DNA from: Sessilibacter corallicola
GTDB taxonomy: Bacteria; Pseudomonadota; Gammaproteobacteria; Pseudomonadales; Cellvibrionaceae
Length of the DNA stretch: 64,000 nucleotides
Assembly: GCF_021290925.1 (NCBI RefSeq)
Contig: NZ_JAJSLX010000001.1
Location: 1-64,000, forward strand
Direction: 5' to 3'
This document shows positions 36,828 through 61,161 of this stretch, piece by piece. Positions within the stretch are counted from its first letter, which is position 1; each line of letters begins with the position of its first letter. The position numbers and the translations under genes are program-made. The notes below the pieces were generated by a model that had not been told where the DNA came from, ran no database searches, and worked only from the letters and a program-made list of their open reading frames with translations.

Positions 36828-36828
36828 C

Positions 36829-38313
36829 TTACAAAGCCTCTCGCGATCCGCCGATATTCAAGGTCGTGGTGAGTTTGAGTTCTGAAACCAAATGGTCCAC
36901 CGTGTAGTGGGTTTTTAAATGGATGATACTTTGGTAATTTCCCGGCGATCTGGGATCATCCATGACCGAAACCCGCGCTTCTCGCAATGGGTATCTGGCC
37001 AACGACTCCCACGGTAAATCCTCGCGGCCGGTGGAATAACCATTGAGCCATTGCTGTAAATGTCGCTCACAGTCTTTGGCGCTTTTATAAGAACCAATTT
37101 TGTCTCTGATAATGATTTTGATGTACTGAGCAAAACGCGAGGCACACAACATTTGTTGCAATAACGAACTGATGCGAGCGTTAGCGGTGGCGGACTTTTT
37201 GGTGTAAATCTTCGGCTTTTGAATTGAAGGAATGCTGTGAAAGGAGCTGAAACCGGTATGCATGCAGTGGCACAAAGGAATTAAACCCAGCTCACTTAAT
37301 TCGTGCTCTAAGGTATCGGTGATCAAGGTTGACGTTGTCATCAACGGCATATGATCACCCGAGTCGGTACGTTGGTATTGCTTTGGAAAATCAATCACCA
37401 AACCACCCGATAAACTGTCTCTCGGTGCACCGCGAATGTGCGCAAACCAACCAACGTCAATAAATTCTCGAATTAAAACAACCCCAAGCGCAAATACCGC
37501 ATTGCCCCACAGGTATTTACTGCTGTCTGGGCCATCGACACATTCGTTGTAGTGAAGTTTAGCTTTGGGAAATTGATAATCTTCGTGGGGCGTGCGCATT
37601 AAAATACGCGGCAGAGCCAAGCCAATAAAGCGAGAATCTTCCATATCGCGAAGGCTTTGCCAGCGAGTGTATTCTTTCTCTAAAAACAATTCTGAAAGGC
37701 GAATATGAGCGCCAAGTTCGTCGTAGCTGTCTAAGCCAAACAGCTCAGGTTTAACACTGCAAATAAACGGACAGAACGCAGCCGCAGCCACTTGGGCAAT
37801 GCCTTTTAAAGTGTTGATGTCGTCGTGGGGGTGATCTGCGGTGGGGCGGTGAGTAACGTCGTAATTGCCGAGCAAAATACCAATAGGTTCGCCACCTGCG
37901 ATACCAAATTCTCGGTTATACACCAACTCGAACAGCGCCGATTGATCGAAATCTGGTGAGCGCTCAATGTCGCGGGTAACTTCACGCCAGCTGATATCCA
38001 AAAAGCGAACTTTAACTTTTTTGCTGTTCGCACTGGCTTCGGTCAAACGCTGCAAACCGTACCACGCAGCTTCTAACTTTTGGAATTTATCGCTGTGCAA
38101 TACTTCATCAAGCTGTTCTGAAATTAAACGGTCTATCTGGGCAATCCACCGAGATATGCGTGTCACAACGTCGCTTTTGCACTTAGCTTCAGTAATTCGA
38201 ACAATATCTGAAAAGTCGAAATAACCGTCGTAATCAGGGCTATTAAATATAGCACTGAGAAAATCGTCGTAGTCATTCGAACTGACGTGTGAATCTTGAT
38301 TGAGTGAACTCAA
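36829..38313 (-). CDS. impD: Second TssC-family protein (ImpD-like sheath paralogue)
   Basis: 494 residues, a diverged VipB/TssC homologue: HSDKFQKLEAAWYGLQRLTE, NREFGIAGGEPIGILLGNYD, W-F-A-H-I-R-G-A-P-R-D. It has its own N-terminal extension (about 1-50, acidic/aromatic) and no tssB partner next to it. In Rhizobium imp loci the order impC-impD-(impE)-tssE-tssF-tssG is known, and impD is such a paralogue; the same gene order applies here, without impE/tagJ. The start is a TTG with AAGGA 8 bases upstream; no ATG is available. Likely role: an alternative sheath or sheath-cap component. Not the main sheath gene, which is at 25622-27109. Confidence 0.9.
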   Translation of the reverse strand: MSSLNQDSHVSSNDYDDFLSAIFNSPDYDGYFDFSDIVRITEAKCKSDVVTRISRWIAQIDRLISEQLDEVLHSDKFQKLEAAWYGLQRLTEASANSKKVKVRFLDISWREVTRDIERSPDFDQSALFELVYNREFGIAGGEPIGILLGNYDVTHRPTADHPHDDINTLKGIAQVAAAAFCPFICSVKPELFGLDSYDELGAHIRLSELFLEKEYTRWQSLRDMEDSRFIGLALPRILMRTPHEDYQFPKAKLHYNECVDGPDSSKYLWGNAVFALGVVLIREFIDVGWFAHIRGAPRDSLSGGLVIDFPKQYQRTDSGDHMPLMTTSTLITDTLEHELSELGLIPLCHCMHTGFSSFHSIPSIQKPKIYTKKSATANARISSLLQQMLCASRFAQYIKIIIRDKIGSYKSAKDCERHLQQWLNGYSTGREDLPWESLARYPLREARVSVMDDPRSPGNYQSIIHLKTHYTVDHLVSELKLTTTLNIGGSREAL

Positions 38314-45793: not shown

Positions 45794-46621
45794 ATGCCAA
45801 ATGCATACATTCCGTTGTTTTCCACACCACCTCCCCCGTCCGATTTTATCTACCCATACGGAGACCAACAAAGCCAGTTTGGTCAGTTGCGAATTCCAAA
45901 GGGCCCTCAAAAGCACCCTGTCATTATTAACTTTCACGGCGGCTGGTGGCGGGCAAAGCACGACTTAAATACACAATCGTACTTCTGCCAAGCATTAACC
46001 CAACAAGGCTTTGCAACCTGGAATGTAGAGTACACACGAATTGGCGAAAACCAAGCATGCTGGCCAAACACATTTCAAGACGTAGCCAACGCAGTTGATT
46101 TCCTTCGAAGCATCGAAGAAAAACACAACCTTGACCTCAACAGAGTCATAACTTTAGGTTTTTCAGCCGGAGCCTCTTTGGCGTTGTGGGCAGCGTCACG
46201 CCCGGTCATAAAACCGACTTCGCCACTCTATACAAAAAACCCTTTAGCCGTTGCGGGAGCGGTCTCGTTGGCAGGTGCTATCGATTTACAGGAATGCTCT
46301 ACACGTCAGCTGAGTGATTCTGTAGTTGATCAGTTTATGGGAGGGAATTATTTTGAAAAACAGGAACGGTATCAGTTGGTCAGTCCGGCAGAATTTACGT
46401 TAGCAGCTATTCCACACCTAATAATCCACGGCAAAGAAGATACCTCTGTTCCCTATTCAATCAGTGAGTCTTTTCACCAAAAAGCCCGCGAGAACACTTC
46501 GGCGACCATAGACTTATGCCTTTTTGATAACTGCGAACATTTCGACTTAATAGATCCCGGCTCTGTATTTTGGCCACAGATCTTAAAAAAGATAACCACG
46601 TTATATCAAAAAATCGCGTAG
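45794..46621 (+). CDS. Alpha/beta hydrolase, candidate kynurenine formamidase
   Basis: 275 residues. Oxyanion-loop motif HGGWW at 48-52, nucleophile elbow GFSAG with Ser124, likely acid Asp216 (HGKEDTSVP) and catalytic His249 (CEHFDLI). The HGG-x-W loop plus H-F-D-L-I is the arrangement of the animal/fungal arylformamidase (AFMID/Bna7) group of the alpha/beta fold, which hydrolyses N-formylkynurenine to kynurenine. The neighbouring minus-strand operon encodes the step before (dioxygenase, 57759) and the step after (3-monooxygenase, 54169). Its stop is 3 bases from the end of that operon, on the opposite strand. Alternatives: a carboxylesterase of the BD-FAE type. No signal peptide. Confidence 0.75.
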   Translation: MPNAYIPLFSTPPPPSDFIYPYGDQQSQFGQLRIPKGPQKHPVIINFHGGWWRAKHDLNTQSYFCQALTQQGFATWNVEYTRIGENQACWPNTFQDVANAVDFLRSIEEKHNLDLNRVITLGFSAGASLALWAASRPVIKPTSPLYTKNPLAVAGAVSLAGAIDLQECSTRQLSDSVVDQFMGGNYFEKQERYQLVSPAEFTLAAIPHLIIHGKEDTSVPYSISESFHQKARENTSATIDLCLFDNCEHFDLIDPGSVFWPQILKKITTLYQKIA

Positions 46622-46624
46622 TTA

Positions 46625-47626
46625 TTAGTTAGCGTTTTGTAGCCTATTGCCCTGAGACACCAAACGTATTGTTTCGAAAAATACAGCAACAATAAATACC
46701 GTGCATAACGTCGCTAAAACGCCTCCGAAACCCAGATAACTAAACTCGTTTGAACATGTCCAAAACAATTGAAAAACACACAATATAGAGACAAAACTTA
46801 ACGTTTTCTTCCTACCTAAAATATTCACCAAAAATGCGCCCAACGGAGCCCCAACAACAACAATCGGAGCGGCCGCCAACCAGTTCTCGAATACATCTTC
46901 ATGAAAACCCACAGTAACCGATTTGATCAAAACCGAATACAACGAGGTCAATGCCATGGCAATAACCGACGTTGGTATCGCAACCCTGAGATCAGATTTA
47001 AAGACCAGTACCAAAATACAGTACAGCACCATATCAACACCAACACCGGTTATTGATACAATACCACTGCTGGCAATAAAGCCTATCAAGCCACCAATAA
47101 TCAGCTCTATGCGCATTGAAAATTTCAAAATACCAGAATAGGTTGAAAACTCGTCCAGTCTAACCATGTGTAAAATGCCGAAACTTGCGCACAACACAGC
47201 AAAAATTAATTTTACCAAAAGCTCAGAAATATTAGGCTCCACCCAAAACAGACCCAATGGAATTCCTAAGCCAACACCGAGCATAACGCCGATTAACACG
47301 TTAACCGCAATTTTTTGCCGCGACACTAAAATAAAAATAGAAGCGCTGGTCATTCCCAAAGACTGAATCAACAGACTAAAATCACGGCCCAGAGATACCG
47401 GCATGTCTAGGCCAAGCACCAATACCGGAAACCCAACCGCCCCACCGCCCATCGGCGTTGAACCAGCAACATAACTGCCAAACGCCATGGTTAACGATAT
47501 TTGCCAGTAATTTCCTAGCTCTTGATAATACCCGCTGTAGAGGACATAAAAAATCCAGATAACATAAAAACACAATACAAAGCCGATCCATACAGAATAA
47601 TGACTACTGAGTAATCGAGACAACAT
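46625..47626 (-). CDS. TauE/SafE-family membrane permease
   Basis: 333 residues, about eight membrane helices. The Gly-rich G-G-G-A-V-G-F-P-V-L near residue 60 and P-L-G-A-F-L-V near 260 are characteristic of the sulphite exporter TauE/SafE family. Last gene of the tryptophan-derived metabolite operon, 30 bp after the barrel protein. In that setting it may move an organic anion rather than sulphite; substrate not known. Confidence 0.85.
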   Translation of the reverse strand: MLSRLLSSHYSVWIGFVLCFYVIWIFYVLYSGYYQELGNYWQISLTMAFGSYVAGSTPMGGGAVGFPVLVLGLDMPVSLGRDFSLLIQSLGMTSASIFILVSRQKIAVNVLIGVMLGVGLGIPLGLFWVEPNISELLVKLIFAVLCASFGILHMVRLDEFSTYSGILKFSMRIELIIGGLIGFIASSGIVSITGVGVDMVLYCILVLVFKSDLRVAIPTSVIAMALTSLYSVLIKSVTVGFHEDVFENWLAAAPIVVVGAPLGAFLVNILGRKKTLSFVSILCVFQLFWTCSNEFSYLGFGGVLATLCTVFIVAVFFETIRLVSQGNRLQNAN

Positions 47627-47656
47627 TGTCGTTATGTCCAGAAATTTTAAAAGAAA

Positions 47657-48832
47657 TTAGAAGTGATAAGCAATTGTGGCTCGAATTAAGCTATCTTCCG
47701 ACAATGACATTAATGTGTCTTGCGTATCGGAAAATACCGTACCTTTAAGTTCGATATTCCATGAATTTTTAATTCTGGTATTAAATTCAAATTGAACAAT
47801 TTTCTCTCGCGTGGGCTGATCAACGATTACGCCTATTAAAATATCGGAATCACCAACATCATTAAAACCAATTCGTACCGCGGTAAAAAAATCGTCTTCG
47901 AACAAATCTGCAGAAACATCCCTACGATCGCTGTACAAATATTCAGCCAACAAACCAACATCTAAATTAGAGTCAAACACCTGATAAAAGGTGTACTCTA
48001 GTCCCAATACCGAAGAAAAATAATTATCGATGTTATTTCTACTGAAACTTACTTCCGATTTAACCAATAGATTGTCACCGGTATACTGAGACTCTAGGTT
48101 AAAACGATTGGTAAGAAGATACACCGCTTGCAAACTGTCATCCGTTGAACGGGATAATAACCAAGGTTCTCGATCTAACCCTCGAAAATACGATGCGCCT
48201 ATGTCCCAAAGGCCAAACGAACTGGAGTACTTAACGGCAATATCTTTCACGCCGGAAGAAGACGTGCCTTCAAATGAACTGTTACCTTTTGCAACCGGCG
48301 GCGAAAGTAAAAATCGTTGCGTTTGATCGGGAAAATCTCGCTTTCTAAAATACGGAAGCCAATAAACCGAAAACTCACCTGAAGTACCAATATAGGAGTA
48401 ATTAACCGTAAATTGCCCTAATTTGTCTTTTTGGTCGAAGTCTTCAATAAGATTGACTTGGTTAAATAAATTAACAACATTACGAGATTCAGTAACACCC
48501 CAAAATTCTTTGACAAACCCGAACCTAAAAGCGGAATTTCTCCCGCTTTTAGACCAGTACAACTCTCCTACATCAAAGTAATCGCGGTACCCAGATTGTC
48601 GCCCCTTTCTTAACACTGGCTCAAAAACAAACGAAGTATCGCCTTGTTTAATTCGCAACCTGGGCTTTAAGTAATACTCAAAGCCCGATAAATCAAGTTG
48701 CTCTGAGAACTGAGCGTCGTCTGGGAAATACCGGTAATCAACGCCCAATTCACCGCCAAGTTCATACGCCTGGGACTCCGACAACACACCACACATGACT
48801 AAGACAGAGGCAAATATCGGCAATCTAAACAC
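47657..48832 (-). CDS. Outer-membrane beta-barrel protein linked to the MMPL exporter
   Basis: 391 residues. GTG start overlapping the exporter stop by one base (TAGTG). Signal peptide ends S-Q-A-Y. The rest is alternating beta strand ending in a terminal aromatic (A-Y-H-F). V-K-E-F-W-G-V-T-E-S-R and V-N-L-F-N-Q resemble the DUF1302-like outer-membrane proteins that accompany MMPL/LolA-like export systems, though I cannot confirm the family. Tight coupling suggests it works with the exporter at 48832-52023. Confidence 0.75.
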   Translation of the reverse strand: MFRLPIFASVLVMCGVLSESQAYELGGELGVDYRYFPDDAQFSEQLDLSGFEYYLKPRLRIKQGDTSFVFEPVLRKGRQSGYRDYFDVGELYWSKSGRNSAFRFGFVKEFWGVTESRNVVNLFNQVNLIEDFDQKDKLGQFTVNYSYIGTSGEFSVYWLPYFRKRDFPDQTQRFLLSPPVAKGNSSFEGTSSSGVKDIAVKYSSSFGLWDIGASYFRGLDREPWLLSRSTDDSLQAVYLLTNRFNLESQYTGDNLLVKSEVSFSRNNIDNYFSSVLGLEYTFYQVFDSNLDVGLLAEYLYSDRRDVSADLFEDDFFTAVRIGFNDVGDSDILIGVIVDQPTREKIVQFEFNTRIKNSWNIELKGTVFSDTQDTLMSLSEDSLIRATIAYHF

Positions 48833-51800
48833 TAATTCAAATACCTCAATCGAGCTTTGACAAAGTCAGAATCGTTCAGACCAATATTGAACTGGTAAGG
48901 GCCGTAGATTAAATCGGTTATTTTTTTGGTTTGATGATTCGTCATACTCCACAGATGCGATCGCCAAACACCGTCGGTATTCTGATAATCTTTAAGCTCC
49001 AAAGTTTTTAATAAATCCGATTTGCGATCGTAGAAGTCAATCTTTCTAATTTGAAGAATATCTTGATCAATCCAAACGTGAAGATACGAATAACCAGAAT
49101 ACTTATACTTTGGTGTCCGTTTGATCAAATCACACTGAAGCTCGCCACACGCCTCCACAGACAACCATTCATGATCGTATTTATTCAGCTCCTGAGACGT
49201 AAAGTCTTCGAAAGCAAATTCAGACCCCATGAACGGACCAGATTTATTGCGTGACGAAATTCGCTTGATTCTTTCAATGGAATTAAGAAACAACCATTGG
49301 TTGTCAGGAGATAAGATTTGCGCGTGAGAAAGTAAAGCCGTGCCTAAAATATCAGAAGGTTCTCTGAACACGACCAAACTTTTATCACCGTAATCTTCAT
49401 CAGCCACCTCAAACGTTTTAACATTGAGAACACGTTTAGACTCGGCACCGCTGGCGTTTTTGAGAATCATAGTGACTTCAACTTCACTGTCGTGAAAACC
49501 ACGATCCGTTCGATCTGAGGCCGCAGAAATTTCATAGCCTTTAGCAAAACTGTCTTGGGCCTCAACGTCGGTTGACATCATTGCCCCAGCACCAATACCA
49601 AGCGCTGAAATCCAAATCACCGATACTTTCGAAGCAGAAGAAACTGCCGCCGACAAGGATGGAGCCGCAGCCGGTGAATCCGAACCCACACTGCTGGTTC
49701 TGTGGAACAGCTTGTGCGACAAGAACAAGATTGCCGGTAACAACAATAAATCATAAACCAAGGCAAATACGATGATTAGAATAGTCAGTAGCCCCAAATC
49801 TTCGCTCATCTTAAACGTTGATCCGGCCATGACGATTAATCCCGAAACCAAAACAACGGTACTGCCAATAATAGCTGGAGCTACATTTTCATAGGTGTAG
49901 CTTATTGCATCAACTGGATTCAATTTTAATACCCGGTTTGCGTAATTGTATTTCGATAGGAAATGCACCGTATCATCAACAACAATACCAAGAGAAATCG
50001 CAGCAACAGAAGCAATTGAGAATCCAACTTGACCAATCAATAATGCCCAAACTCCAAACCCAGCTAATATCGGTAAGAAATTCGAAACTAAACTGACCGC
50101 ACCCAAATAAGTGCTTCTTAAACACACAGCTAAAATAACGCCAATAATTAGGATAGCAACCACAGTACCCTGAATCATACTGGCCACGTTTCTATCGGTA
50201 ATATAAGTAAACATCACGTGGGCACTGGTCGGTTGCGAATCGCGCATGTACTCAGGAAAATTTTCGTTAATCCAGTTTTGCGTACTGTCTAAGAAAAACT
50301 TGGTTTCTTGAGTCGAGACTTTATTAAGCAGTACTGTAATACGGCTGGCCGATTTATCAATGTTTATTCGGTCATTGAGATCAAGACCATAAGGTAACGA
50401 CAATTCATAGATAAGCAGGTAATCAGAGACAACGTCTTTTTCTGCTGGAACTTCATAAAAATCTTGTTGATCTTCATTAATGTTGTAATTCAGGCGCTTA
50501 ATAATATCGGTGATTGAGTAAACATGATGCACTGCGTCTTGCGTCAATAAGAACTGCTTGAATTCATCCAAGTACTCTAAATATTCTGGATCTGAAACGC
50601 CCTGCGGCCCCAACGCTGGCACAGAATATTCGATAGGATACAAACCGAAATACTCGGTTGCAGAATCAGTATCTCGTCGAAATTGAATAGATTCATCAAA
50701 ATATTCAACCCATTGATCATCAAATTTTATCGTCGGGATCATGTATATCAAAAAGCCACTGCCTATAATCGAGATCAAAACCACCGCTGGTGCATATCGA
50801 GTCACTATTTTTGCTGTAGACTCACTCGCTCTGGATAGAAACGAAAACTCTGGAAAAATCTTGAATCGTTTTTGAGGAATAATCGCCAAAAACGCTGGAA
50901 ACAGGATTAGCGATAACACCCACGCAGAAGCAATACCCACCGCGGCCATATTGCCTAAATGCCAGTACGGAGGCGAATCTGAAAAATTTAACGACAAGAA
51001 GCCAACCACGGTTGTTAAAGAGGTTACCGTAATAGGCAATATATTCTGTCGCATTGCCAAGCGAATAGAGGCAAATCGGTCACCAGAATTTTTAAACTCT
51101 TTTTTATAAGTCAGGAAAAAGTGAATAGAATCGGCAATAGCGAGCGTAATAATCAAAATAGGAGCACTATTGGATACTGGCGTTAAATAAATACCAGAAT
51201 AACCACCAACGCCCATACCGACGCCCATCGACAAATAGGCAACTACCACCGTAATAAACGTACCAATAAATGACCTGAGCACCAAAAATGATACGATAAT
51301 TAAGGTCAAATACATCATGGGAACTAAATTAACAGAATCCAAATACCCAGATTCGCCAAAGGCATTATTGAGCATACCGAACCCGGTCAGATGAACCTTT
51401 AAACCCGGATAGGAAGCCTCAATATTCGCCTTAATCTCACGGGCTTTGGCCGCGGCAGTAGGAACTTCAAACACGGTTTTTCGCGGTAACTGCAACACCA
51501 CATTAACCGCAGCGGCATTACCTGTTTCAGTGACAAACAAACCAGAGAGCAAAGGCTCGTTCAGAGCCACCTCTTTTATTTCGCTTATTTTACTCTCAGT
51601 TAAATTTTCCTCGTCCAGTAATAGATCTTTAACAACCAAACCATCTTCATCAGAAAATGTATGCTGAAAGTTAACAACAGAATCAACACGATTGGTATAA
51701 GGAATTGACCATGCAGATTCGGTGAGTTCTCTCAAAGCGGAGATTGTACTTTGGTTAAACACCGTACCTTCACTAGGGACCACCACAAAATAGAAATTAT

Positions 51801-52023
51801 CATTTTTGGTGTAGGTGTTCTGAAAGTTAACAAACGTTTGTAATTCAGGATTCTCGCCGGAGAAAAAGATTCTATAATCTGGGGAAAATGTCAGGTTTTT
51901 TGCTCCTTGTGAGACCATAAACGCAACACCCACAAACAACAAAACCACAATATATTTGTACTTAATTATAAAACTCGACAGCGATTCGGAAATTTTATCG
52001 GTAAAACTTTTGATATTGGTCAC
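48832..52023 (-). CDS. MMPL/RND-family exporter fused to a LolA-like periplasmic domain
   Basis: 1063 residues. Residues 1-790 are a complete MMPL-type RND transporter: a first helix at about 25-41, periplasmic loop, helix cluster at about 225-385 (ILIITLAIADSIHFFLTYKK), second loop, and a second cluster at about 620-780 (LGIVVDDTVHFLSKYNYA, the conserved D-D). A signal-like hydrophobic segment (about 798-818, followed by E-A-Q) introduces residues 823-1063. These form a LolA-like/outer-membrane lipoprotein-sorting domain (R-I-K-R-I, W-L-F-L-N, F-A-F-E-D-F). Elsewhere these are two separate genes. Operon: 50 bp after trpG, 1-base overlap with the barrel protein. Probably exports a lipophilic product of the cluster. 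Confidence 0.87.
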   Translation of the reverse strand: MTNIKSFTDKISESLSSFIIKYKYIVVLLFVGVAFMVSQGAKNLTFSPDYRIFFSGENPELQTFVNFQNTYTKNDNFYFVVVPSEGTVFNQSTISALRELTESAWSIPYTNRVDSVVNFQHTFSDEDGLVVKDLLLDEENLTESKISEIKEVALNEPLLSGLFVTETGNAAAVNVVLQLPRKTVFEVPTAAAKAREIKANIEASYPGLKVHLTGFGMLNNAFGESGYLDSVNLVPMMYLTLIIVSFLVLRSFIGTFITVVVAYLSMGVGMGVGGYSGIYLTPVSNSAPILIITLAIADSIHFFLTYKKEFKNSGDRFASIRLAMRQNILPITVTSLTTVVGFLSLNFSDSPPYWHLGNMAAVGIASAWVLSLILFPAFLAIIPQKRFKIFPEFSFLSRASESTAKIVTRYAPAVVLISIIGSGFLIYMIPTIKFDDQWVEYFDESIQFRRDTDSATEYFGLYPIEYSVPALGPQGVSDPEYLEYLDEFKQFLLTQDAVHHVYSITDIIKRLNYNINEDQQDFYEVPAEKDVVSDYLLIYELSLPYGLDLNDRINIDKSASRITVLLNKVSTQETKFFLDSTQNWINENFPEYMRDSQPTSAHVMFTYITDRNVASMIQGTVVAILIIGVILAVCLRSTYLGAVSLVSNFLPILAGFGVWALLIGQVGFSIASVAAISLGIVVDDTVHFLSKYNYANRVLKLNPVDAISYTYENVAPAIIGSTVVLVSGLIVMAGSTFKMSEDLGLLTILIIVFALVYDLLLLPAILFLSHKLFHRTSSVGSDSPAAAPSLSAAVSSASKVSVIWISALGIGAGAMMSTDVEAQDSFAKGYEISAASDRTDRGFHDSEVEVTMILKNASGAESKRVLNVKTFEVADEDYGDKSLVVFREPSDILGTALLSHAQILSPDNQWLFLNSIERIKRISSRNKSGPFMGSEFAFEDFTSQELNKYDHEWLSVEACGELQCDLIKRTPKYKYSGYSYLHVWIDQDILQIRKIDFYDRKSDLLKTLELKDYQNTDGVWRSHLWSMTNHQTKKITDLIYGPYQFNIGLNDSDFVKARLRYLN

Positions 52024-52073
52024 GAATATCTCCTAACAATGTAATAGGGAATTACGTCGAAACAAAAAACACA

Positions 52074-52676
52074 TTATTTACTTAAAAAATTACTGATGAT
52101 CTTATCTGAAAAATCGGTTGCAAAAGATTCAGGATGAAATTGAAGCCCTTCCAAAAGGCCATTTTCATGACGTAACGCCATTATCACCTCTTGGCCCTCG
52201 TCATGGCAGACCGCAGTGACTTCAAAACAATTCGGCAATGTATTTCTGTCAACCACCAACGAGTGATACCGCATGGTCTCAAATCGATGCGGCAAACCTT
52301 TTAAAATGCCTGAGTTTGTGTGTTGAACAATGGATGTTTTGCCGTGACAGGGGTTTTCAGACTCAACAATCTTAGCTCCGTAAACATTGGCCAAACCCTG
52401 CATACCCAGACAAATACCCAACATAGGAATTAAATCGGAAAACTGCTCAATGATTTCTGAGCACGCCCCAAAGTATTCAATATTGTCAGGTGAACCTGGT
52501 CCCGGAGAAATAACAATGTGCGTTGGCTTAAACGATTCTATAAAAGAGACATCTACCTCGTTATTGCGTTTAACGACAACCTCACTCTGAGAATCCACCT
52601 CCAACACACATCGCGAAATAAGCTGAAATAAATTATAAGTAAAGGAATCAAAATTATCGATTATAAGAATTTTCAT
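52074..52676 (-). CDS. trpG: TrpG-type glutamine amidotransferase of anthranilate synthase
   Basis: 200 residues. Class I amidotransferase triad: Cys89 in GICLGMQG, His181 and Glu183 in L-Q-F-H-P-E-S. The N-terminal LIIDNFDSFTYNL and V-I-S-P-G-P-G-S-P are standard. Supplies ammonia to the TrpE partner, whose stop codon directly abuts this start. Two insertions (around 25-35) make it slightly longer than typical TrpG. PabA-type function is possible in principle, but the partner has the anthranilate-type active-site residue. Confidence 0.9.
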   Translation of the reverse strand: MKILIIDNFDSFTYNLFQLISRCVLEVDSQSEVVVKRNNEVDVSFIESFKPTHIVISPGPGSPDNIEYFGACSEIIEQFSDLIPMLGICLGMQGLANVYGAKIVESENPCHGKTSIVQHTNSGILKGLPHRFETMRYHSLVVDRNTLPNCFEVTAVCHDEGQEVIMALRHENGLLEGLQFHPESFATDFSDKIISNFLSK

Positions 52677-54128
52677 CTAATTAACCATGTATCGACGTAG
52701 AGTGGTTTTAGTAGCTTCTAACTTTCTTTGTATTTCCTCGTACTCCAATTCCAGAACAGAATCGCATACTATTCCGCCACTGGTTTGCACAAACGCTTTT
52801 TTGTCACTGATAAAAACAGATCGAATTGGAATTGCGAACTTACAATCACCACTGAAAGAAAAATATCCAACGGCTCCTCCGTAAGGGCCTCTACCGCTAA
52901 CTTCCAGCGAATTCGATATTTTAATGGCTTCAATTTTAGGGGCACCAGAAAGCGTACCCGCAGGAAAACAAGCCGCCAACCCAGAAAATGCATCTTCGTG
53001 ATTGGCGATCAAACCAACAATTTGAGAAGAAATATGCTGAACGTGAGAGAACTTTTTAATATCTTTTAAGTTTTTAATAAACACGCTGCCAACTCTCGCC
53101 ACCTTACCCAAATCATTGCGATGCAGGTCAATCAGCATATTGTGTTCGGCATTCTCTTTGGGATTATTGATAAGTTCTCTGGCGTATTTAGTGTCTTCAA
53201 ACTCTGAATTACCGCGTGTTGTGGTACCGGCAAGAGGATAGGTTTCTACCTCAACCCCACTTAATTTAAACAGTAACTCAGGAGAAGCGCCGGTAATTAC
53301 ATTTACGCCAAACTTAAAATAGTACATATGTGGAGAAGGATTTATTTTGCGCAGCTGTTCATAAATCAAAATGGAATCGCCATCGATTTCATAGTTTGAC
53401 CGAATCCCCACTTCGCACTGAAAAATAAACCCTTTTTTGATCAGCGACTTCACGTACTCAACTTGATAAAAATACTCTTCTTTGCTTACAGAGTCTCCAA
53501 CGTATTCAACCTTTAATGAGTTTTTAAAGATAATATCACCAAAGATTAGATTTTTTATTTGCTGGAATCGACTTTCGTCATAGAAAAAATAAAAAACTTC
53601 GCCAGTCACCTGATCATACACAAGCCCATCAAAATACACGCCAAACTTAAAAGCGTAGAAATTTTCATCCTGCTTGATATTAAGACTTGGTTCTAGATAA
53701 TTGATAGCGTCGTAACCAACGTAACCAACCAAACCACCAACATAACGCGTATCCGATACCTTTTGTGGAATAAATTCTCTGAGCGCGTAGTAGGCGTTGT
53801 CGCATTTCAGCTCACTGGTAACGAATTCTTTGCAGTCTTCAATATGCAACGTATTAACGTCTTTAGACTTTAAAATATAACGAGGATCAAAACCAATAAC
53901 ACCATACCGAGATGTCAAGCTTTTATCGCCCAAAGATTCCAGTAAAAAACAGACATCAAACCGCTTTTCTATCTTTTTAAACGCTTTATAAAAATCGATA
54001 TCTTCAGCAATTTTAACAAACTTAGGGCCCTTGCTCAGGGTATATGCTATGCGCTTTCTAACCGCATTAACATCGGCGTGGTACGCTTTATTTTCAACAG
54101 AACCATTGATATCTACATTCTCCATCAA
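52677..54128 (-). CDS. trpE: TrpE-type anthranilate synthase component I
   Basis: 483 residues. Chorismate-binding domain with NPSPHMYYFKFG, ITGASPELL, PLAGTTTRG (298-306), the E-N-A-E-H-N-M-L-I-D-L metal site, S-H-V-Q-H-I-S-S, and FPAGTLSGAPK. The Ala in P-L-A-G-T is the TrpE-type residue (PabB has Lys), favouring anthranilate over aminodeoxychorismate. The N-terminal FLLES at 61-65 is the tryptophan-feedback motif of TrpE, so inhibition by Trp may be kept. Unusually, the region normally Q-V-V-L-S-Q-R reads Q-C-E-V-G-I-R. 40 bp after the 3-monooxygenase gene. Probably a dedicated copy, since the rest of the trp genes are absent. Confidence 0.9.
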   Translation of the reverse strand: MMENVDINGSVENKAYHADVNAVRKRIAYTLSKGPKFVKIAEDIDFYKAFKKIEKRFDVCFLLESLGDKSLTSRYGVIGFDPRYILKSKDVNTLHIEDCKEFVTSELKCDNAYYALREFIPQKVSDTRYVGGLVGYVGYDAINYLEPSLNIKQDENFYAFKFGVYFDGLVYDQVTGEVFYFFYDESRFQQIKNLIFGDIIFKNSLKVEYVGDSVSKEEYFYQVEYVKSLIKKGFIFQCEVGIRSNYEIDGDSILIYEQLRKINPSPHMYYFKFGVNVITGASPELLFKLSGVEVETYPLAGTTTRGNSEFEDTKYARELINNPKENAEHNMLIDLHRNDLGKVARVGSVFIKNLKDIKKFSHVQHISSQIVGLIANHEDAFSGLAACFPAGTLSGAPKIEAIKISNSLEVSGRGPYGGAVGYFSFSGDCKFAIPIRSVFISDKKAFVQTSGGIVCDSVLELEYEEIQRKLEATKTTLRRYMVN

Positions 54129-54168
54129 GCTAAACCCCTCAAATTCAAGTTAATGACAATAGGTGCTT

Positions 54169-55482
54169 TTAAGCTTCGCTAAGAACTTTACCTAGATTGT
54201 TCACTATATCGGAATCGGAATAATCGGTTCGAAACCCGTTACTTTCACAAAATTCTCTGACAACTTTGTTCTGAAAATTAATTTTGGTTTTAACGTCGGA
54301 ATAGGGCATACACGAAAAGGCTATCATTCTGTACGCTTCTTGAAATTCGTTAGGAAAAAGCGTAGAGCATCTTTTTTCGATGTTTTTCATTGCGATGTAT
54401 TCTGGAGAACTTAAATCACAGGTTAACTCTGTAAACATGTCTCTAGACATCATGGTAACAGCATCCAGATCACGCTTTCTTGCTTTCGTAAATTGCTCAA
54501 CCGCACCTTTAATACCAAATCTGTTCACCTTATCGATAAAAACAGAACAGTCTTCCAGGCCAGAATTCATACCCTGGCCCAAAAACGGCAGCATGCTGTG
54601 CCCAGCATCGCCCATTAACAGAACCTTTCCGTCATAATCGTATCGGCTACAAATAATGGAGCGCAGCGTGCTGACCTTCGACGACAAAACTTTGGTGAAG
54701 AAGCTTTCATTAAATTCCTTGAGAAATTCAAGCTTATCGAAATAGGTCACTTGAGATTGCAAATTTTTTCTCAGACTTTCAAAATCACGAGTAGATGAAA
54801 TGAGCGTTCCGGTGTGGCTTCCATCCATATTAGGAAAGGAAAAAAACGAATTTCCGCCGTAGGGCCACGCGTGCATGGATTCAGAATCAAGCCCCTGTGC
54901 TTCCATACGACTGATAGGAATTTCTTTGTATGAAAAAGGCTCTACAATTTCTTCGGTTTGTACCTTACCAAATTCAACCAACAGATTTCTGACAACAGAA
55001 TTAGAACCATCGGCACCAATAATAAGATCAAACTTTTTTTGATCTCCGGTATCAAAATAAACCACGTTATCGTAAAAGTCGATGTCGTGTACGCCCTTAC
55101 CGAAATAAACAGAGATGTTAGCTTGGCGCTTGATTAAATTTAATAAAATCTCATTCAGCTTAGTTCTGTGTATGGCCGAAAGACACTCACCCGTACTGGA
55201 ATAATCTTGCAGAAAACTCGAACCGTCTTTTTTATGAATGTAGCGGCCTTTAAGTTTTATTGCGTTACTTTCTACTACTGACTCTATACCAAGAGATTTA
55301 AACACTTTCCAGCCACGTTCCGATACCACAAGGTGGGTCGACCTTCCGTTAGACATGCCTGAGTTTGTGCTATAGCCTCTTTTTTCATACACCGAGACCC
55401 GATAACCCAAATCAGACAACAGCCTAGCAATCACACAACCCACCAAACCCGCACCGGCAACGCATATTTCAAGGTTCTTCAT
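54169..55482 (-). CDS. kmo: Kynurenine 3-monooxygenase homologue
   Basis: 437 residues, FAD-dependent hydroxylase that would convert kynurenine to 3-hydroxykynurenine with NADPH and O2. Rossmann GAGLVG at 10-15. KMO-specific motifs: GRSTHLVVSERG (46-57), the R-x-x-L-N-x-x-L-L region at 106-115, YKEIPI (185-190), HAWPYGG (204-210), and the FAD-binding G-D-A-G-H-S-M-L-P-F (291-300) followed by GQGMNSGLEDC (302-312). The GQGMN-x-G-x-EDC string separates KMO from most UbiH-like hydroxylases. No C-terminal membrane helix, as in other bacterial KMOs. Between the cupin (60 bp with a hairpin) and trpE (40 bp). AGGA upstream of the ATG. Confidence 0.88.
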   Translation of the reverse strand: MKNLEICVAGAGLVGCVIARLLSDLGYRVSVYEKRGYSTNSGMSNGRSTHLVVSERGWKVFKSLGIESVVESNAIKLKGRYIHKKDGSSFLQDYSSTGECLSAIHRTKLNEILLNLIKRQANISVYFGKGVHDIDFYDNVVYFDTGDQKKFDLIIGADGSNSVVRNLLVEFGKVQTEEIVEPFSYKEIPISRMEAQGLDSESMHAWPYGGNSFFSFPNMDGSHTGTLISSTRDFESLRKNLQSQVTYFDKLEFLKEFNESFFTKVLSSKVSTLRSIICSRYDYDGKVLLMGDAGHSMLPFLGQGMNSGLEDCSVFIDKVNRFGIKGAVEQFTKARKRDLDAVTMMSRDMFTELTCDLSSPEYIAMKNIEKRCSTLFPNEFQEAYRMIAFSCMPYSDVKTKINFQNKVVREFCESNGFRTDYSDSDIVNNLGKVLSEA

Positions 55483-55500
55483 AACTGAATCCTAGAATGA

Positions 55501-55533
55501 TTTGGGGGTTTAGTTATTGCCTAAACCCCCAAA
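55501..55533 (-). terminator. Hairpin between cupin and kmo genes
   Basis: Perfect 13-bp stem TTTGGGGGTTTAG / CTAAACCCCCAAA with a 7-base loop, inside the operon 9 bases past the cupin stop. A short A/T-rich end but no U-tract. Likely an attenuating or mRNA-stabilising element that sets different levels for the first three and the later genes. Confidence 0.65.
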
Positions 55534-55542
55534 CGAAAATAC

Positions 55543-56073
55543 CTAAGAAGCAACCGCTTTACGACGAGACAAACGTAATTTTTCCATTTCTGGTAAAATG
55601 ACGGCCGTGGTATTGGTTTCGCTTACATAGCGAGTCAACAACACCGCGCACGGTTCAGTATCACTGGGATTATCGATAAAGTGCGGAACGTTTGGCGGTA
55701 CAAAAACAAAACTTCCCGCCTCGGCCACTTCATAATTTTCAAGAGCATCGCCCCACAACAAAGCCAATCTACCCGATAAAACGTAGCCGCTGGTTTCATG
55801 TTCGTGGATATGAACCGGACCGTCTTCATCTTTGGGCGCAATCTCGTACAGCGCAAAGTGAATTTCTCTTGCGCCAACCGTATCAGGGGTAATGCCATCA
55901 ATAATTTTTCCACCCGTTCCCATCACGTGAGGAACCTGGGTTTTTGTGACACCCATTTCATAGACACCGGCGTGAATAATACCGCAGTCAAGGCGCGGTA
56001 GTTGGTACATGGTTTTACCAGACGTTGGATGAGTCAAGGTAATTTCTGGCGACAACTGAGTTTCGTTTTCCAT
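55543..56073 (-). CDS. Cupin-domain protein of the tryptophan cluster
   Basis: 176 residues, single cupin. Motif 1 is GPVHIHEHETSGYVLSG (two metal His, then Glu or nearby acid), and motif 2 is P-P-N-V-P-H-F-I-D-N (third His). The 3-His metal site is therefore available, so an Fe or Mn enzyme is plausible. A 70-residue N-terminal part is outside the cupin core. It does not match 3-hydroxyanthranilate dioxygenase beyond the fold. Ribosome site AGAGGAAG. Role in the pathway unknown; a dioxygenase, isomerase or cyclase step are options. Confidence 0.85.
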   Translation of the reverse strand: MENETQLSPEITLTHPTSGKTMYQLPRLDCGIIHAGVYEMGVTKTQVPHVMGTGGKIIDGITPDTVGAREIHFALYEIAPKDEDGPVHIHEHETSGYVLSGRLALLWGDALENYEVAEAGSFVFVPPNVPHFIDNPSDTEPCAVLLTRYVSETNTTAVILPEMEKLRLSRRKAVAS

Positions 56074-56140
56074 ATCTTCCTCTTTATTTCATCAGACAAA
56101 CTATCTACGATAAAAATGATTAACTGTTATGAAGCAGTAT

Positions 56141-57733
56141 TTATGAAGCTACAATGCTTTCTGCATCGTTGTTTTCTACCACCTTGTGGTCGAATTTTTG
56201 ATTAAGGTATTGCACTAACGGATTGAAATGAACATCGTCTTCTGTCCATTCAGGAATAATATCTTCAAGCACATGATGCTCAGACACTAAATTGCCGCGT
56301 AAAAATGTTCGAATAATTGGGTGAATACCGGTGCTGAGATGTGCACCATCGACGTCATCTTTGTGTATTCGATCTACGGCTAACGGATCAGGGCTGGCGT
56401 AGATAATATCTAGCCCAAATTCCAACGTAACAATGTGATAAAATTCAAATTCAGAAAACTCCTCTTCGACTAAATTTGTCGGTACATCAACAAAGTATTC
56501 AAACGATTCGGAGTCATTTTTTTTTGCAATTACATCGCACAAAAAACCCGTCTGCTGCCATAAGCCTGGGCTCATGTTCGAACGCTCTAAAACGAGCTTA
56601 GCGATATCTTCGGCAGATTTTTTAACAGCAAGAGAAGGCCAAGAAACACCGTGGTATTTCTTCTCTAAAAAATTCGAGAGCGACTCAATATTGTGCCTAA
56701 ACCCGTGAATAAAACCCGATTGTTTTTTACGATAATCACGCTCTTGCATTAGGGTTCCAGCAAAATACATGTCGTCAACATTCTTTGATTCAAAATTATT
56801 TTTGAGCGCTGGGAAGCGATTATTCAATCTTAAATCAGGGCGCGCAGATTGCTGGAAAATACTTTTATCCAACTGAAACCCGGTACAAAGCAGAACTTTA
56901 TCGAACTCCATTTCTTCAATTTCATCGTCGGCATGAACGTAGTGAAACGTCGTTTTCAGAGCATCGCCACTTTTCTCGATCTTGGTCAAATTCGCATCGA
57001 GCATCACGTTTTGCAACTTCAATTGATAGGTATCGATAAAGTTATTATTAATGGCCCTCAAATGGCCAACGAACTTGCTTTTCCACGACAGTGTAATCGG
57101 CGTTGGACTGCACACGTAAATTCGCGAAGCCGTTGAAATCAAGTTATCTGCGGTCTCAAACGCCGAATTGCCTTTACCAACAATCAGTACTTTTTTGTCG
57201 ACAAAATCATTAGGATCAACCGACATTTCGGTGTAAAGCTCAGCCAATTCAATACCGGGAATATTGGGCACATAAGGCTTGCTCACACCTGTAGCCACCA
57301 CCAAAACCTTACACGTAACTTCTTTTGCTCCATCCAATTCAACAGTAAATAAGCCATCTTTAGAGACAGAGGTAACCTTGCAATTAAATTCAATATTAAG
57401 CTTGTTGACCTTGGCAAAATCGGACAGATAATCAGTCATTACATCGGCTGGAGGAAAGTACTCTTTGCTGTATTCCTTGAATAATACATCGTGATCGTAA
57501 TCTATGAGAGAGTTCCAATCCCAACGGAGGTTTCTTATTTTATCATCGTAGCCTGTATAGACTTTATTGGCAGATATTAAGGTTCTATGACGAGGAAAGC
57601 GCTTAAAAAACGTTCCCACACTCGGACCAGATTCAACGATACAATAGTCTCTTTTGTTTCTCTCTAGAAAATAACCAAGCTGAAGTCCGGCCGGCCCCGC
57701 ACCAATAACAAGATACTCATAATATTTTTTCAC
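56141..57733 (-). CDS. FOXRED2-like FAD-dependent oxidoreductase
   Basis: 530 residues; GTG start with AAGGT upstream. N-terminal FAD site VIGAGPAGLQLGYFL, then the R-F-P-R-H-R-T-L-I-S-x-N-K segment and D-W-N-S-L, which I recognise from the FOXRED2/ERFAD group rather than ordinary flavin monooxygenases. Second Rossmann motif VLIVGKGNSAFETA (NADPH) and V-L-L-C-T-G-F. The C-terminal 150 residues have the group's H-P-I-I-R...H-V-L-E-D-I-I-P-E-W-T pattern. 25 bp after the dioxygenase gene, so co-transcribed. Likely N- or C-oxidation of a kynurenine-type intermediate or a reduction partner; reaction unknown. Confidence 0.82.
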   Translation of the reverse strand: MKKYYEYLVIGAGPAGLQLGYFLERNKRDYCIVESGPSVGTFFKRFPRHRTLISANKVYTGYDDKIRNLRWDWNSLIDYDHDVLFKEYSKEYFPPADVMTDYLSDFAKVNKLNIEFNCKVTSVSKDGLFTVELDGAKEVTCKVLVVATGVSKPYVPNIPGIELAELYTEMSVDPNDFVDKKVLIVGKGNSAFETADNLISTASRIYVCSPTPITLSWKSKFVGHLRAINNNFIDTYQLKLQNVMLDANLTKIEKSGDALKTTFHYVHADDEIEEMEFDKVLLCTGFQLDKSIFQQSARPDLRLNNRFPALKNNFESKNVDDMYFAGTLMQERDYRKKQSGFIHGFRHNIESLSNFLEKKYHGVSWPSLAVKKSAEDIAKLVLERSNMSPGLWQQTGFLCDVIAKKNDSESFEYFVDVPTNLVEEEFSEFEFYHIVTLEFGLDIIYASPDPLAVDRIHKDDVDGAHLSTGIHPIIRTFLRGNLVSEHHVLEDIIPEWTEDDVHFNPLVQYLNQKFDHKVVENNDAESIVAS

Positions 57734-57758
57734 GATATATTTACCTTGAAATTTTTGT

Positions 57759-58928
57759 TTAAGTAATTAAATGATTTAACGTCTCTTCTCGATGTTTTTT
57801 TAAGTACTTCATAAATGGTGAACCGCCTGTACCTATTTCCCCCCTCTCTCTAGATTGACTGTATTTGGATGCTGGTTTATGAATGTAATCAACGGTAATT
57901 TTTAAATGTTCACTTCTAAACTCAGCCAGCTCATAGATACAATTATTATAAGAATCGGTAATTGCCTTATCGTCAGAAGTTAATACAAGCGATCTCAGCT
58001 TGTTTTTCGATAGAAGAACACTCAGAAAATTTTGATGTTCAATAGGCATGTACGCACGTAGATGAATCAAATACGATAACAACTCATCTTCTGCGTGCTG
58101 AATACCGAGCAGTGCATCGATTAAAGGAAGAATTAAACTCTGTGCTCCACTGCCACCTGGATGAGAAATTGGCTGGTTGTTAAATTTAGCAACGCCTTCA
58201 AACCGTACTCGGTTCATACCTCGCATAAACGGCTGAATTCTATTAAAAAAGATATCTGGATCACAATTAGAGCGTACGTTGGCTAATACATTCTTGATGT
58301 CATGTAAGGTACGACTGACAACATTTAACTCCCTGACAACTTCGCTGGAATCTAAGTAGTACCCGTCTAGATTCATCAAGGTATTTGCCGCTTTTACCAG
58401 CACTTCGGCTTTCTTTTCAATATCAATATGAGTCCGAATAAACCAACTTTCGTCCAAACCACCGTAAAAACGGCAAATAATCGCTAAATTATTAATTTCG
58501 ACGTCGCCATCAGAATCTAATTTTTTCCAATTATTTAAACCGTGGGAATAGTAACTTAAAACTGGTTTTCTATTTAACGTATCGGCAATTTCTGACAACG
58601 GGACAGCAATTGCCGGACAAATAGAACCTCTTGTTTCTTTCTTCCAGTTTTCATGTATGGAAGCGTGGGCAAAGACTGACAACATTAACAGCGCAAGCTC
58701 CTGCTCGCCTTTACTTATCAAGGACGACACATCTTTTACGTCTTGCTTCTTTATTACTGAATTAAATTTTTTAGCTGCCAACAAGTCAGGAAGTTCTGTA
58801 ACCAGATGATTCCATTCTTTAAATTCATCAGGCAATTTCTGTATAGGTTGGACTTCTGGCAAAAAACTGTTGATTGTGAATTGAGAGACACTACTACGTA
58901 AATAGTCATTCGCAACGGTGCTTGACAT
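57759..58928 (-). CDS. Indoleamine 2,3-dioxygenase (IDO) family haem enzyme
   Basis: 389 residues, IDO length. Expected reaction: L-tryptophan plus O2 to N-formylkynurenine. Motifs colinear with animal IDO: ICPAIAVPLSEIADTL followed by K-P-V-L-S-Y-Y, C-D-P-D-I-F-F-N-R-I-Q-P-F, G-G-S-G-A-Q-S, RAYMPIEHQNFL, the proximal-haem region FRSEHLKITVDYI with His341, and the substrate-loop GTGG (366-369) before F-M-K-Y-L-K. These set it apart from tryptophan 2,3-dioxygenase and from the PrnB branch, though PrnB-like chemistry cannot be excluded. First gene of the operon; GAGGG upstream of the ATG; promoter candidate at 59057-59085. IDO is uncommon in bacteria. Confidence 0.88.
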   Translation of the reverse strand: MSSTVANDYLRSSVSQFTINSFLPEVQPIQKLPDEFKEWNHLVTELPDLLAAKKFNSVIKKQDVKDVSSLISKGEQELALLMLSVFAHASIHENWKKETRGSICPAIAVPLSEIADTLNRKPVLSYYSHGLNNWKKLDSDGDVEINNLAIICRFYGGLDESWFIRTHIDIEKKAEVLVKAANTLMNLDGYYLDSSEVVRELNVVSRTLHDIKNVLANVRSNCDPDIFFNRIQPFMRGMNRVRFEGVAKFNNQPISHPGGSGAQSLILPLIDALLGIQHAEDELLSYLIHLRAYMPIEHQNFLSVLLSKNKLRSLVLTSDDKAITDSYNNCIYELAEFRSEHLKITVDYIHKPASKYSQSRERGEIGTGGSPFMKYLKKHREETLNHLIT

Positions 58929-59194: not shown

Positions 59195-60523
59195 ATGAGA
59201 CCGATTACCATGTCTGTTCACAACATCTTTCTACCTTCTTCGGAACAAAAAGTAGGCATGTTAAATAAAAGAGTGGTTAAAAATTTGGACTTTCTTACAG
59301 ACTCTACCGCATCTTTTGACAACGATATTCGGCATTTCTTTTCGCACACAAACTTTTTTATTTCAGAAACAGCGCACAAAAATATTGTAGAAGCCATCGA
59401 TTTAATCGAATCAGTCGTGCGAAACAAACGCTACATTCAATCGATCACCGCTTCATATCCATACCCGCCAACCAAATCAGAACTAAAAGGCATCTTAAAT
59501 TGCTACGATTTTCACCTTCAAGACGATACTCCAAAACTGATAGAAATTAATACCAATGCAGGCGGCGCTCTATTAAATGTCGATTTTATTCAAAAATACG
59601 AATCCAAATATCCAAGTTACTTGAATAATTCACACACAAGCTCTTCTGAGCAAATCAAAGCAAAAATCATCGACATGTTTTTGACTGAGTGGAAGCTAAC
59701 GAATAATACTAGACCGTTAAAAACGGTCGCCATTGTCGATAAAGATCCCAAAGCGCAATTTTTATATCCAGAATTTTTCCGTTTTAAGAACCTGTTATCA
59801 CGTCAGGGGATTGTTTCCTATATAGTTGCGCCAGAAGAATTAACCTGTATTGGCGACAATCTGTATTACCAGTCCACAAGAATTGATATGATATATAATC
59901 GCATGACAGATTTTTTACTGGAGGAAAAATACAACGAACACATTAAGCAATCTTACGCGTCGGGCGCAGTGGCGCTATCACCAAACCCATACCTCTATAC
60001 CATTTACGCTGACAAAAGAAATTTAGTGACGCTATCGGATAAATCCCGCTTATCGCAATTGGGTATTTGCGATAAATCAATCGCACGGTTAAGCCAATAC
60101 ATACCAAACGCAGTTCTTGTCACTCATGAGAACGAACAAAATTTGTGGAAAAATAAATCTCGTTATTTCTTCAAACCAATTCACGGATTTGGAAGTAAAG
60201 CCGCCTATAAAGGAAGCAAACTTACAAAAAAAACCTGGCAAGCCATCATTCACTCTAATTACATCGCTCAAAACTATGTAGAGCCATCCGTTAGAATTGT
60301 CCAACTGGACGACAAATTTATAAATTTAAAAGCCGACTTACGCGCCTACGTTTACGATGGCAAACTTCTGTTTTTGGCAGCACGATTATTTCGCGGCCAG
60401 ACAACTAATTTTCGTACCTTTGGCGGTGGGTTTTCGGTCGTTCACCCAATATTAGATAAGAATTCCTACATATCTAACTCACTGCACAAAGGTTATATTA
60501 ACTTTAATAATTCTAAGACGTAG
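59195..60523 (+). CDS. Conserved protein with ATP-grasp-like features
   Basis: 442 residues, no signal peptide. Features: PKLIEINTNAGGALLN (about 111-126), IDMIYNRMTDFLLEEK, then SPNPYLYTIYADKRNLVTLS, the FFKPIHGFGSKAAYKGSKLT loop (a phosphate-binding Gly-rich turn after K), A-Q-N-Y-V-E-P-S, D-L-R-A-Y-V-Y-D-G and Q-T-T-N-F-R-T-F-G-G-G-F. The Lys-Pro, E-I-N and D-L-R/T-N elements suggest an ATP-grasp amide ligase, possibly with permuted order. I recall the family only as uncharacterised. The second ATG at 59210 has a better-placed GAG and may be the real start. Divergent from the IDO operon, 24 bp before tag. Confidence 0.7.
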   Translation: MRPITMSVHNIFLPSSEQKVGMLNKRVVKNLDFLTDSTASFDNDIRHFFSHTNFFISETAHKNIVEAIDLIESVVRNKRYIQSITASYPYPPTKSELKGILNCYDFHLQDDTPKLIEINTNAGGALLNVDFIQKYESKYPSYLNNSHTSSSEQIKAKIIDMFLTEWKLTNNTRPLKTVAIVDKDPKAQFLYPEFFRFKNLLSRQGIVSYIVAPEELTCIGDNLYYQSTRIDMIYNRMTDFLLEEKYNEHIKQSYASGAVALSPNPYLYTIYADKRNLVTLSDKSRLSQLGICDKSIARLSQYIPNAVLVTHENEQNLWKNKSRYFFKPIHGFGSKAAYKGSKLTKKTWQAIIHSNYIAQNYVEPSVRIVQLDDKFINLKADLRAYVYDGKLLFLAARLFRGQTTNFRTFGGGFSVVHPILDKNSYISNSLHKGYINFNNSKT

Positions 60524-60546: not shown

Positions 60547-61161
60547 GTGTTAACTATGAGTTCGTCAGCCGTGTGTCCAGACGGAAAGCCAAGATGCAAA
60601 TGGAGCCTTTCTGCTCCTGATTTTATTGACTATCACGACAAGGAATGGGGATTCCCAGTTTCTGATGATCGAATTTTATTTGAGAAAATTTGTTTGGAAG
60701 GATTTCAATCTGGCTTAAGCTGGAGAACAATTTTGGCTAAAAGAGAAGATTTCAGAATAGCGTTTAAAAATTTTGAAATTGAAAAAGTAGCGCGATACAA
60801 CACTCGCAGTGTTGAAAAACTTCTTACCAACGAAGGAATCGTACGTCACCGAGGAAAAATTGAAGCTACTATTAATAACGCCAAAAAAGCCATTGATTTA
60901 ATCGAAGAAAAAGGCTCACTTGCCGCGTTTTTTTGGCATTACGAGCCCGACCCATCCGACGTCGACCCACCGCAAACGGTATCGGTTTCAAAAGAATCAA
61001 CCGCCATTTCTAAAGAGTTAAAAAAACGCGGCTGGAAATTTGTAGGCCCAACCACCGTTTTTGCGTTTATGCAGGCCATGGGACTCATCAACGATCACGT
61101 CCACGGCTGCTGCGTTCGCGAAAAAGTGGAAGAAGCGAGAAATAAATTTAAACGACCTTAG
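60547..61161 (+). CDS. tag: DNA-3-methyladenine glycosylase I
   Basis: 204 residues. Base-excision repair enzyme removing 3-methyladenine. Family landmarks: C-K-W opening, DYHDKEWGFPVSDDRILFEK, EGFQSGLSWRTIL, VGPTTVFAFMQAMGLINDHV and the paired His/Cys zinc ligands (C near 13, H near 28, H-G-C-C near the end). The length is normal. It appears to be co-transcribed with the ATP-grasp-like gene and is followed by a good terminator. Probably housekeeping and unrelated to the tryptophan cluster. Confidence 0.95.
   Translation: MLTMSSSAVCPDGKPRCKWSLSAPDFIDYHDKEWGFPVSDDRILFEKICLEGFQSGLSWRTILAKREDFRIAFKNFEIEKVARYNTRSVEKLLTNEGIVRHRGKIEATINNAKKAIDLIEEKGSLAAFFWHYEPDPSDVDPPQTVSVSKESTAISKELKKRGWKFVGPTTVFAFMQAMGLINDHVHGCCVREKVEEARNKFKRP

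Follow-up and report, generated by a model that had tools for sequence, protein, structure and literature searches.

An orphan gene cluster of Sessilibacter corallicola with IDO and KMO-like enzymes that are probably repurposed

What use does a bacterium have for an indoleamine 2,3-dioxygenase (IDO) and a hydroxylase resembling kynurenine 3-monooxygenase (KMO), if both are encoded in one operon together with an anthranilate synthase and export genes? This question is raised by a stretch of 64,000 nucleotides from Sessilibacter corallicola (RefSeq assembly GCF_021290925.1, contig NZ_JAJSLX010000001.1, positions 1 to 64,000), which we call the window. A preliminary description had proposed a biosynthetic cluster that exports a metabolite of the kynurenine type. 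Dedicated biosynthesis and export are borne out, as a core of the genes is conserved in three genomes and export genes adjoin it; the kynurenine chemistry is not. We favour, with a probability of roughly 0.6, a horizontally scattered orphan biosynthetic cluster, in which repurposed IDO and KMO family members contribute to an indole-derived, probably reactive and exported small molecule.

According to its fold and heme site, as judged from the sequence, the protein encoded at 57759..58928 is a member of the IDO family, an assignment that makes no claim of tryptophan dioxygenase activity. In a PDB search, it matched only the solved structures of IDO1 and IDO2 (human IDO1, mammalian IDO2). Related clusters exist in Duganella guangzhouensis and in a second genome of the genus Duganella (locus L145), and the IDOs of all three clusters fall into a single clade (support 100/100, n = 3). 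The proximal heme histidine is kept in the proteins of the window and of D. guangzhouensis, the GTGG substrate loop in all three. In human IDO1 (hIDO1), Arg231 anchors the carboxylate of L-tryptophan, and binding of the substrate requires Thr379; Arg231 is the equivalent of Arg144 in human tryptophan dioxygenase (TDO), which pairs with the tryptophan carboxylate, and its role has been confirmed experimentally (PMC5758539). The position of Arg231 is occupied by glutamine in 3/3 cluster IDOs and by arginine in 19/19 others, namely 18 other bacterial IDOs and one mammalian IDO2. In the window protein, Gln232 takes the position of Arg231 and His129 that of Cys129; the latter exchange occurs in both cluster IDOs tested. 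In IDO searches among relatives, in the order, class and phylum, and in the Duganella family, all full-length matches examined were of the arginine type except that of D. guangzhouensis. The loss of Arg231 suggests a mode of substrate binding that differs from that of free L-tryptophan.

The KMO-like protein (54169..55482) has its best PDB match in Pseudomonas KMO (1.6e-50), the next flavin hydroxylase family following at 1.6e-12, and carries the motif GDAxH...PFxGQGMN. Profile and PDB searches left the earlier placement of the 54169 and 57759 proteins with KMO and IDO intact. The best NCBIfam match is VioC, a relative of KMO, at scores far under the cut-off (97 and 186 bits as compared to 760). 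In KMO (numbering of Pf KMO), the substrate carboxylate is contacted by R84, Y98, Y404 and N369, and L213, L226, I224, F238 and M373 are located near the ring (PMC6376250). R84, Y98 and Y404 are kept in all three cluster proteins, whereas N369 and the ring pocket (L213, I224, L226, F238, M373) are changed in each of them; in 3-4 of the 4 reference KMOs, the same residues are either unchanged or exchanged conservatively. The shared exchanges are L213M, M222S, I224F, L226F, F238I/L, H320L and N369M/T/A. KMO is the nearest solved relative, and judged by these residues the window enzyme is KMO-like and not KMO proper. The retained clamp and the changed ring pocket argue for a substrate that is an acid other than kynurenine. 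Taken together, the exchanges in IDO and KMO make kynurenine an unlikely product of the cluster IDO; the route from tryptophan to 3-hydroxykynurenine, as previously proposed, is therefore probably wrong.

Both genes belong to an operon of nine open reading frames on the minus strand, all of which were located as first described, with gaps of -1 to 67 bp (TauE through IDO: 30, -1, 50, 0, 40, 60, 67 and 25 bp). Profile or PDB searches upheld the families of IDO, KMO, TrpE, TrpG, cupin, flavoprotein, MMPL-LolA and TauE. The original edges of the cluster (46625-58928) have to be moved, because the gene set reaches past both sides: a hydrolase gene (45794-46621) and the gene of a DNA-3-methyladenine glycosylase (Tag; 60547-61161) had been missed. 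The hydrolase gene is convergent with the operon, 3 bp separating its end from that of the TauE gene; the Tag gene begins 23 bp past the reading frame at 59195-60523, with which it apparently forms a two-gene operon. Scans for promoters and terminators gave no more matches than scans of shuffled sequences. The features are:

45794..46621, plus strand: alpha/beta hydrolase (BD-FAE family), candidate deformylase; core (Pfam BD-FAE, 6.5e-33)
46625..47626, minus strand: TauE/SafE-type permease; accessory (Pfam TauE, 4e-15)
47657..48832, minus strand: putative outer-membrane barrel protein; accessory (without family match)
48832..52023, minus strand: fusion of an MMPL transporter (RND HAE3-type) and a LolA-like domain; accessory (Pfam MMPL, 3.4e-24; LolA_like, 4.3e-53)
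52074..52676, minus strand: TrpG-type glutamine amidotransferase; accessory (GATase, 8.9e-47; trpG_papA above the NCBIfam cut-off)
52677..54128, minus strand: TrpE-type anthranilate synthase component I, extra copy; accessory (Anth_synt_I_N and Chorismate_bind)
54169..55482, minus strand: KMO-like FAD hydroxylase; core (FAD_binding_3)
55543..56073, minus strand: cupin; core (Cupin_2, 2.4e-13)
56141..57733, minus strand: FOX, a flavoprotein with two dinucleotide-binding sites and a fold like class-B flavin monooxygenases (FMO) and YpdA; core (Pyr_redox_3, 7e-44)
57759..58928, minus strand: IDO; core (Pfam IDO, 3.1e-82, residues 19-384)
59195..60523, plus strand: 442-residue protein without family match, divergent from the operon; membership uncertain
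60547..61161, plus strand: Tag (DNA-3-methyladenine glycosylase I), extra copy; likely member (Adenine_glyco, 1.1e-68)

Which of these genes belong together? The unit conserved across the three genomes, which represent two distant groups, consists of hydrolase, IDO, FOX, cupin and KMO. In the window, these five genes lie inside 13.1 kb; in both Duganella-genus genomes they are contiguous, with gaps of 10-105 bp in one and 7-78 bp in the other. The gene order in both Duganella loci is hydrolase, IDO, FOX, cupin, KMO and glutathione S-transferase (GST), followed after 443-471 bp by Tag. Genes for a membrane-fusion protein and an RND (resistance-nodulation-division) protein of an efflux pump are divergent from this operon, and in D. 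guangzhouensis an outer-membrane protein gene comes next. Between window and Duganella, sequence identity amounts to 62-64% for FOX, 68-71% for the cupin, 44-46% for IDO, 43-48% for the hydrolase and 32-37% for KMO. Export genes adjoin the core in all three copies. In the Duganella loci fetched, nothing corresponds to TrpE, TrpG, MMPL, barrel and TauE; most plausibly, these five were added locally in the window for supply and export. Of the set expected to co-occur (IDO, FOX, cupin, KMO, TrpE/TrpG, MMPL), the first four do so across genomes, whereas TrpE/TrpG and MMPL are specific to the window.

The core is very rare. An alignment scan with FOX over 84,980 species genomes yielded 231 confirmed relatives, the best 80 of which were kept; recall was limited, because the search relied on two peptide patterns alone. 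Only one of these 80, that of D. guangzhouensis, has IDO, cupin and KMO next to FOX; the second Duganella-genus cluster was recovered by a genus-wide IDO search. IDO homologues of any type occur in about 2% of genomes (relatives 3/146, order 7/392, class 8/369, phylum 8/399), and in the Duganella family D. guangzhouensis is the only one among 295 genomes with a match. The cluster context was seen around none of the other IDOs with fetched flanks, and the relative that shares the genus of the window genome lacks IDO. Neither KMO nor the IDO pair gave a match in scans of viral contigs, and tblastn of plasmids with IDO, FOX, KMO, cupin and MMPL did not find a second cluster. KMO homologues beside genes of the nonribosomal peptide synthetase (NRPS) or polyketide synthase (PKS) type, as in Eleftheria and Serratia, were set aside due to their different gene context. 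So sparse and scattered a distribution suggests horizontal spread of the core.

For FOX, the matches of an AlphaFold2 model (pLDDT, the predicted local distance difference test, of 85) are YpdA and class-B flavin monooxygenases, with N-hydroxylases ranking lower. A disulfide reductase of the YpdA/TrxR type was considered and is disfavoured: among 34 FOX sequences, no cysteine occupies an invariant or near-invariant column, and the conserved redox cysteine is thus lacking. NRPS genes stand beside FOX relatives in Aliikangiella and Fulvivirga, P450 genes in Calothrix, Tamaricihabitans and Paraburkholderia, and O-methyltransferase genes also occur next to relatives; FOX fits a predicted tailoring oxygenase. 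Formation of N-N bonds by FOX and the cupin, as in some cupin systems, was considered as well; the sequences give no specific evidence for it. FOX may resemble human FOXRED2. More generally, FOX-type flavoproteins constitute a widespread, little-studied family encoded next to NRPS, P450 and methyltransferase genes (L030, L036, L041, L055, L072, L085, L097). In Paraburkholderia, locus L072 has genes for an FMN dehydrogenase, a P450 and a CPA2-like antiporter in a row with FOX, and similar families recur in Microbulbifer and many actinomycetes. In Calothrix brevissima (L035:9202-12601), an unassigned protein of about 257 residues, FOX and a HGGYW hydrolase follow each other, which is a FOX-hydrolase pair without IDO; the family of the 257-residue protein recurs in cyanobacterial FOX loci. 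The hydrolase of the window carries the motifs HGGWW and GFSAG and is 43-48% identical to the enzyme that opens the Duganella operons.

The most suggestive neighbour is Tag, whose gene adjoins all three clusters. This Tag type occurs in 7/75 Duganella-genus genomes, among them both cluster genomes; two randomly chosen genomes of this genus would both have it with a probability of 0.008. A further full-length Tag copy is encoded elsewhere in the window genome. Joint travel of Tag and the core was dropped as an explanation, since in a tree the cluster Tags are not a single clade; Tag was probably recruited beside the core at least twice. A DNA-repair gene beside all three clusters may hint at a chemically reactive product. 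By analogy, Tag could be protective, as glycosylases of other families confer self-resistance in genotoxin clusters (PMC9040887, PMC8626424, PMC8934636). In relatives of Duganella and in the family of the window genome, this Tag type often stands behind a TetR gene (L206, L207, L210, L216), in three of these loci together with a short YciI-like gene; the TetR-Tag pairing suggests an inducible alkylation response. The 59195-60523 protein has no Pfam, NCBIfam or PDB match and resembles ATP-grasp proteins by eye only; a single-sequence fold gave no usable model (pLDDT 33). It is sporadic (12/88 relative genomes, its own included), and no Tag was found in the fetched flanks except in the window.

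The accessory genes of the window concern supply and export. TrpE has the anthranilate-type motif PLAGT and the motif LLES, and the TrpG gene is 0 bp away; by motif and partner the pair is an anthranilate synthase, although TrpE scores below the NCBIfam equivalog cut-off. Two more genes of the TrpE/PabB family lie elsewhere in the genome: one encodes a TrpE with 32% identity to that of the operon, the other a protein of the PabB type with the motif PIKGT. MMPL and LolA_like are joined in one protein of 1063 residues. The 47657-48832 protein matches no Pfam or NCBIfam family; its label as a putative barrel is based on a signal-peptide-like start, the C-terminal ...IAYHF and homologues with 27-29% identity, which adjoin MMPL-LolA in two other loci (L025 and L026). 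This module of MMPL, LolA-like protein and barrel recurs on a Pseudoalteromonas plasmid by gamma-mobile-trio recombinase genes and in Sulfitobacter by a PKS (L025:7610-13108, L026:7962-13902).

The sequences show gene content, conservation, the IDO clade and the residue exchanges; from these we infer the chemical steps given below, the order in which they occur, the product and what Tag does. The heme enzyme of the distinct IDO clade would cleave a tryptophan-derived indole between C2 and C3 to give an N-formyl aryl ketone, the carboxylate of this indole being absent, masked or differently bound. The HGGWW hydrolase would remove the formyl (or an ester) group, and the KMO-like enzyme would hydroxylate an acid-bearing intermediate other than kynurenine on its aromatic ring. 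FOX and the cupin may then bring about further oxidation, N-oxygenation or rearrangement. Export would be accomplished by MMPL-LolA and the barrel in the window or by the RND pump in Duganella; residual damage would be handled by Tag, in Duganella additionally by GST. TrpE and TrpG of the window would boost precursor supply. A more specific version is tentative, and we deem it rather unlikely in its entirety: an indole without a free alpha-carboxylate is opened by the IDO-clade enzyme, and oxidations by the KMO-like enzyme, FOX and cupin lead to a DNA-modifying metabolite of a new natural-product class, with Tag providing self-resistance. To our knowledge, this would be the first case of self-resistance based on the Tag family.

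Several findings weigh against the repurposed cluster as we read it. The set of non-cluster KMOs is small (n = 4), the cluster KMOs retain the carboxylate clamp, and the hydrolase is nearer to esterases than to any solved formamidase. The exchange R231Q need not exclude tryptophan, as Gln232 or His129 could bind the carboxylate. Only three copies are known, two of them from one genus. The link to Tag could be due to chance, given the distance of 443-471 bp from the Duganella operons and the occurrence of this Tag type alone or after a TetR gene. If the enzymes are taken literally, IDO acts on free L-tryptophan, deformylation and KMO lead to 3-hydroxykynurenine, FOX and cupin convert it to an exported pigment, chelator or signal, and TrpE/TrpG feed tryptophan. 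The enzyme families, the HGGWW hydrolase in all three copies, the retained R84, Y98 and Y404 and the extra TrpE/TrpG copy inside the operon agree with this proposal; the replacement of Arg231 by glutamine in 3/3 IDOs and the altered N369 and ring-pocket residues in 3/3 KMOs speak against it, and we regard it as possible but doubtful.

An ordinary kynurenine pathway, serving NAD synthesis or tryptophan catabolism, is hardly credible. IDO and KMO are its enzyme families, but kynureninase, aminotransferase and 3-hydroxyanthranilate dioxygenase were not recognised in the operons, and a NadA-like quinolinate synthase near the housekeeping Tag (identified by eye rather than by profile) speaks for the aspartate route. 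Such a pathway is likewise at odds with the export genes, FOX and the very sporadic distribution. The preliminary description had already doubted it, and our analysis supports this: the core is kept together beside export genes, and FOX relatives reside in biosynthetic contexts. The same location of FOX relatives in biosynthetic clusters, and the fact that the window operon has its own anthranilate synthase supplying precursor, make it very improbable that the core detoxifies or degrades an external indole compound, even if efflux, GST and Tag could guard as stress genes against an outside toxin and no assembly-line enzyme is present. Improbable, too, is the use of anthranilate from TrpE/TrpG as a building block that is joined to a kynurenine-type unit, perhaps by the 59195-60523 protein. 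The gene pair lies inside the operon, a protein without family match is next door, and the fungal terreazepine cluster offers a precedent for a cluster IDO (PMC7448278); the fetched Duganella loci contain no TrpE/TrpG, however, none of the copies has an NRPS, and the 59195 protein shows no recognised ligase family.

How does the cluster relate to known systems? Fungi have clusters in which a repurposed IDO is accompanied by an NRPS and which produce kynurenine; nanangelenin reportedly stems from such a cluster. As in the terreazepine cluster of Aspergillus terreus, an IDO is dedicated to secondary metabolism (PMC7448278). In contrast to the fungal clusters, ours has no assembly line, its IDO lacks a counterpart of Arg231, and it includes FOX, a cupin and a KMO-like enzyme in addition. 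Quinolobactin, actinomycin and sibiromycin are made by bacterial clusters on the kynurenine route, which use TDO and kynureninase or aminotransferase. With these systems our cluster, as we propose it, shares an opening of the ring, removal of the formyl group and hydroxylation by an enzyme of the KMO type, all within secondary metabolism; kynureninase and aminotransferase were not seen in the latter, and the FOX-cupin pair is extra. The genotoxin clusters with AlkZ, YtkR2 and TxnU/LldU likewise have a base-excision glycosylase beside biosynthetic genes (PMC9040887, PMC8626424, PMC8934636), whereas Tag belongs to a different glycosylase family and is linked to our cluster by proximity. A limited literature search found no report of this gene set nor of a bacterial cluster with a repurposed IDO.

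Lacking NRPS, PKS and any other gene of an assembly line, the cluster may escape ordinary genome mining. Both IDO and KMO hold a central place in human tryptophan metabolism and are targets of drugs; in this naturally occurring clade, the anchoring arginine of IDO and the ring pocket of KMO are both rewritten within one operon, which offers a direct route to learning how these folds switch from one substrate to another. Should Tag confer self-resistance, the cluster would make a new compound reactive towards DNA, and Tag would be a new marker by which to find similar clusters. Elsewhere in the window, at 34540-38313 on the minus strand, genes for TssF and the contractile sheath protein TssC of type VI secretion are apparently part of a larger locus of this system.

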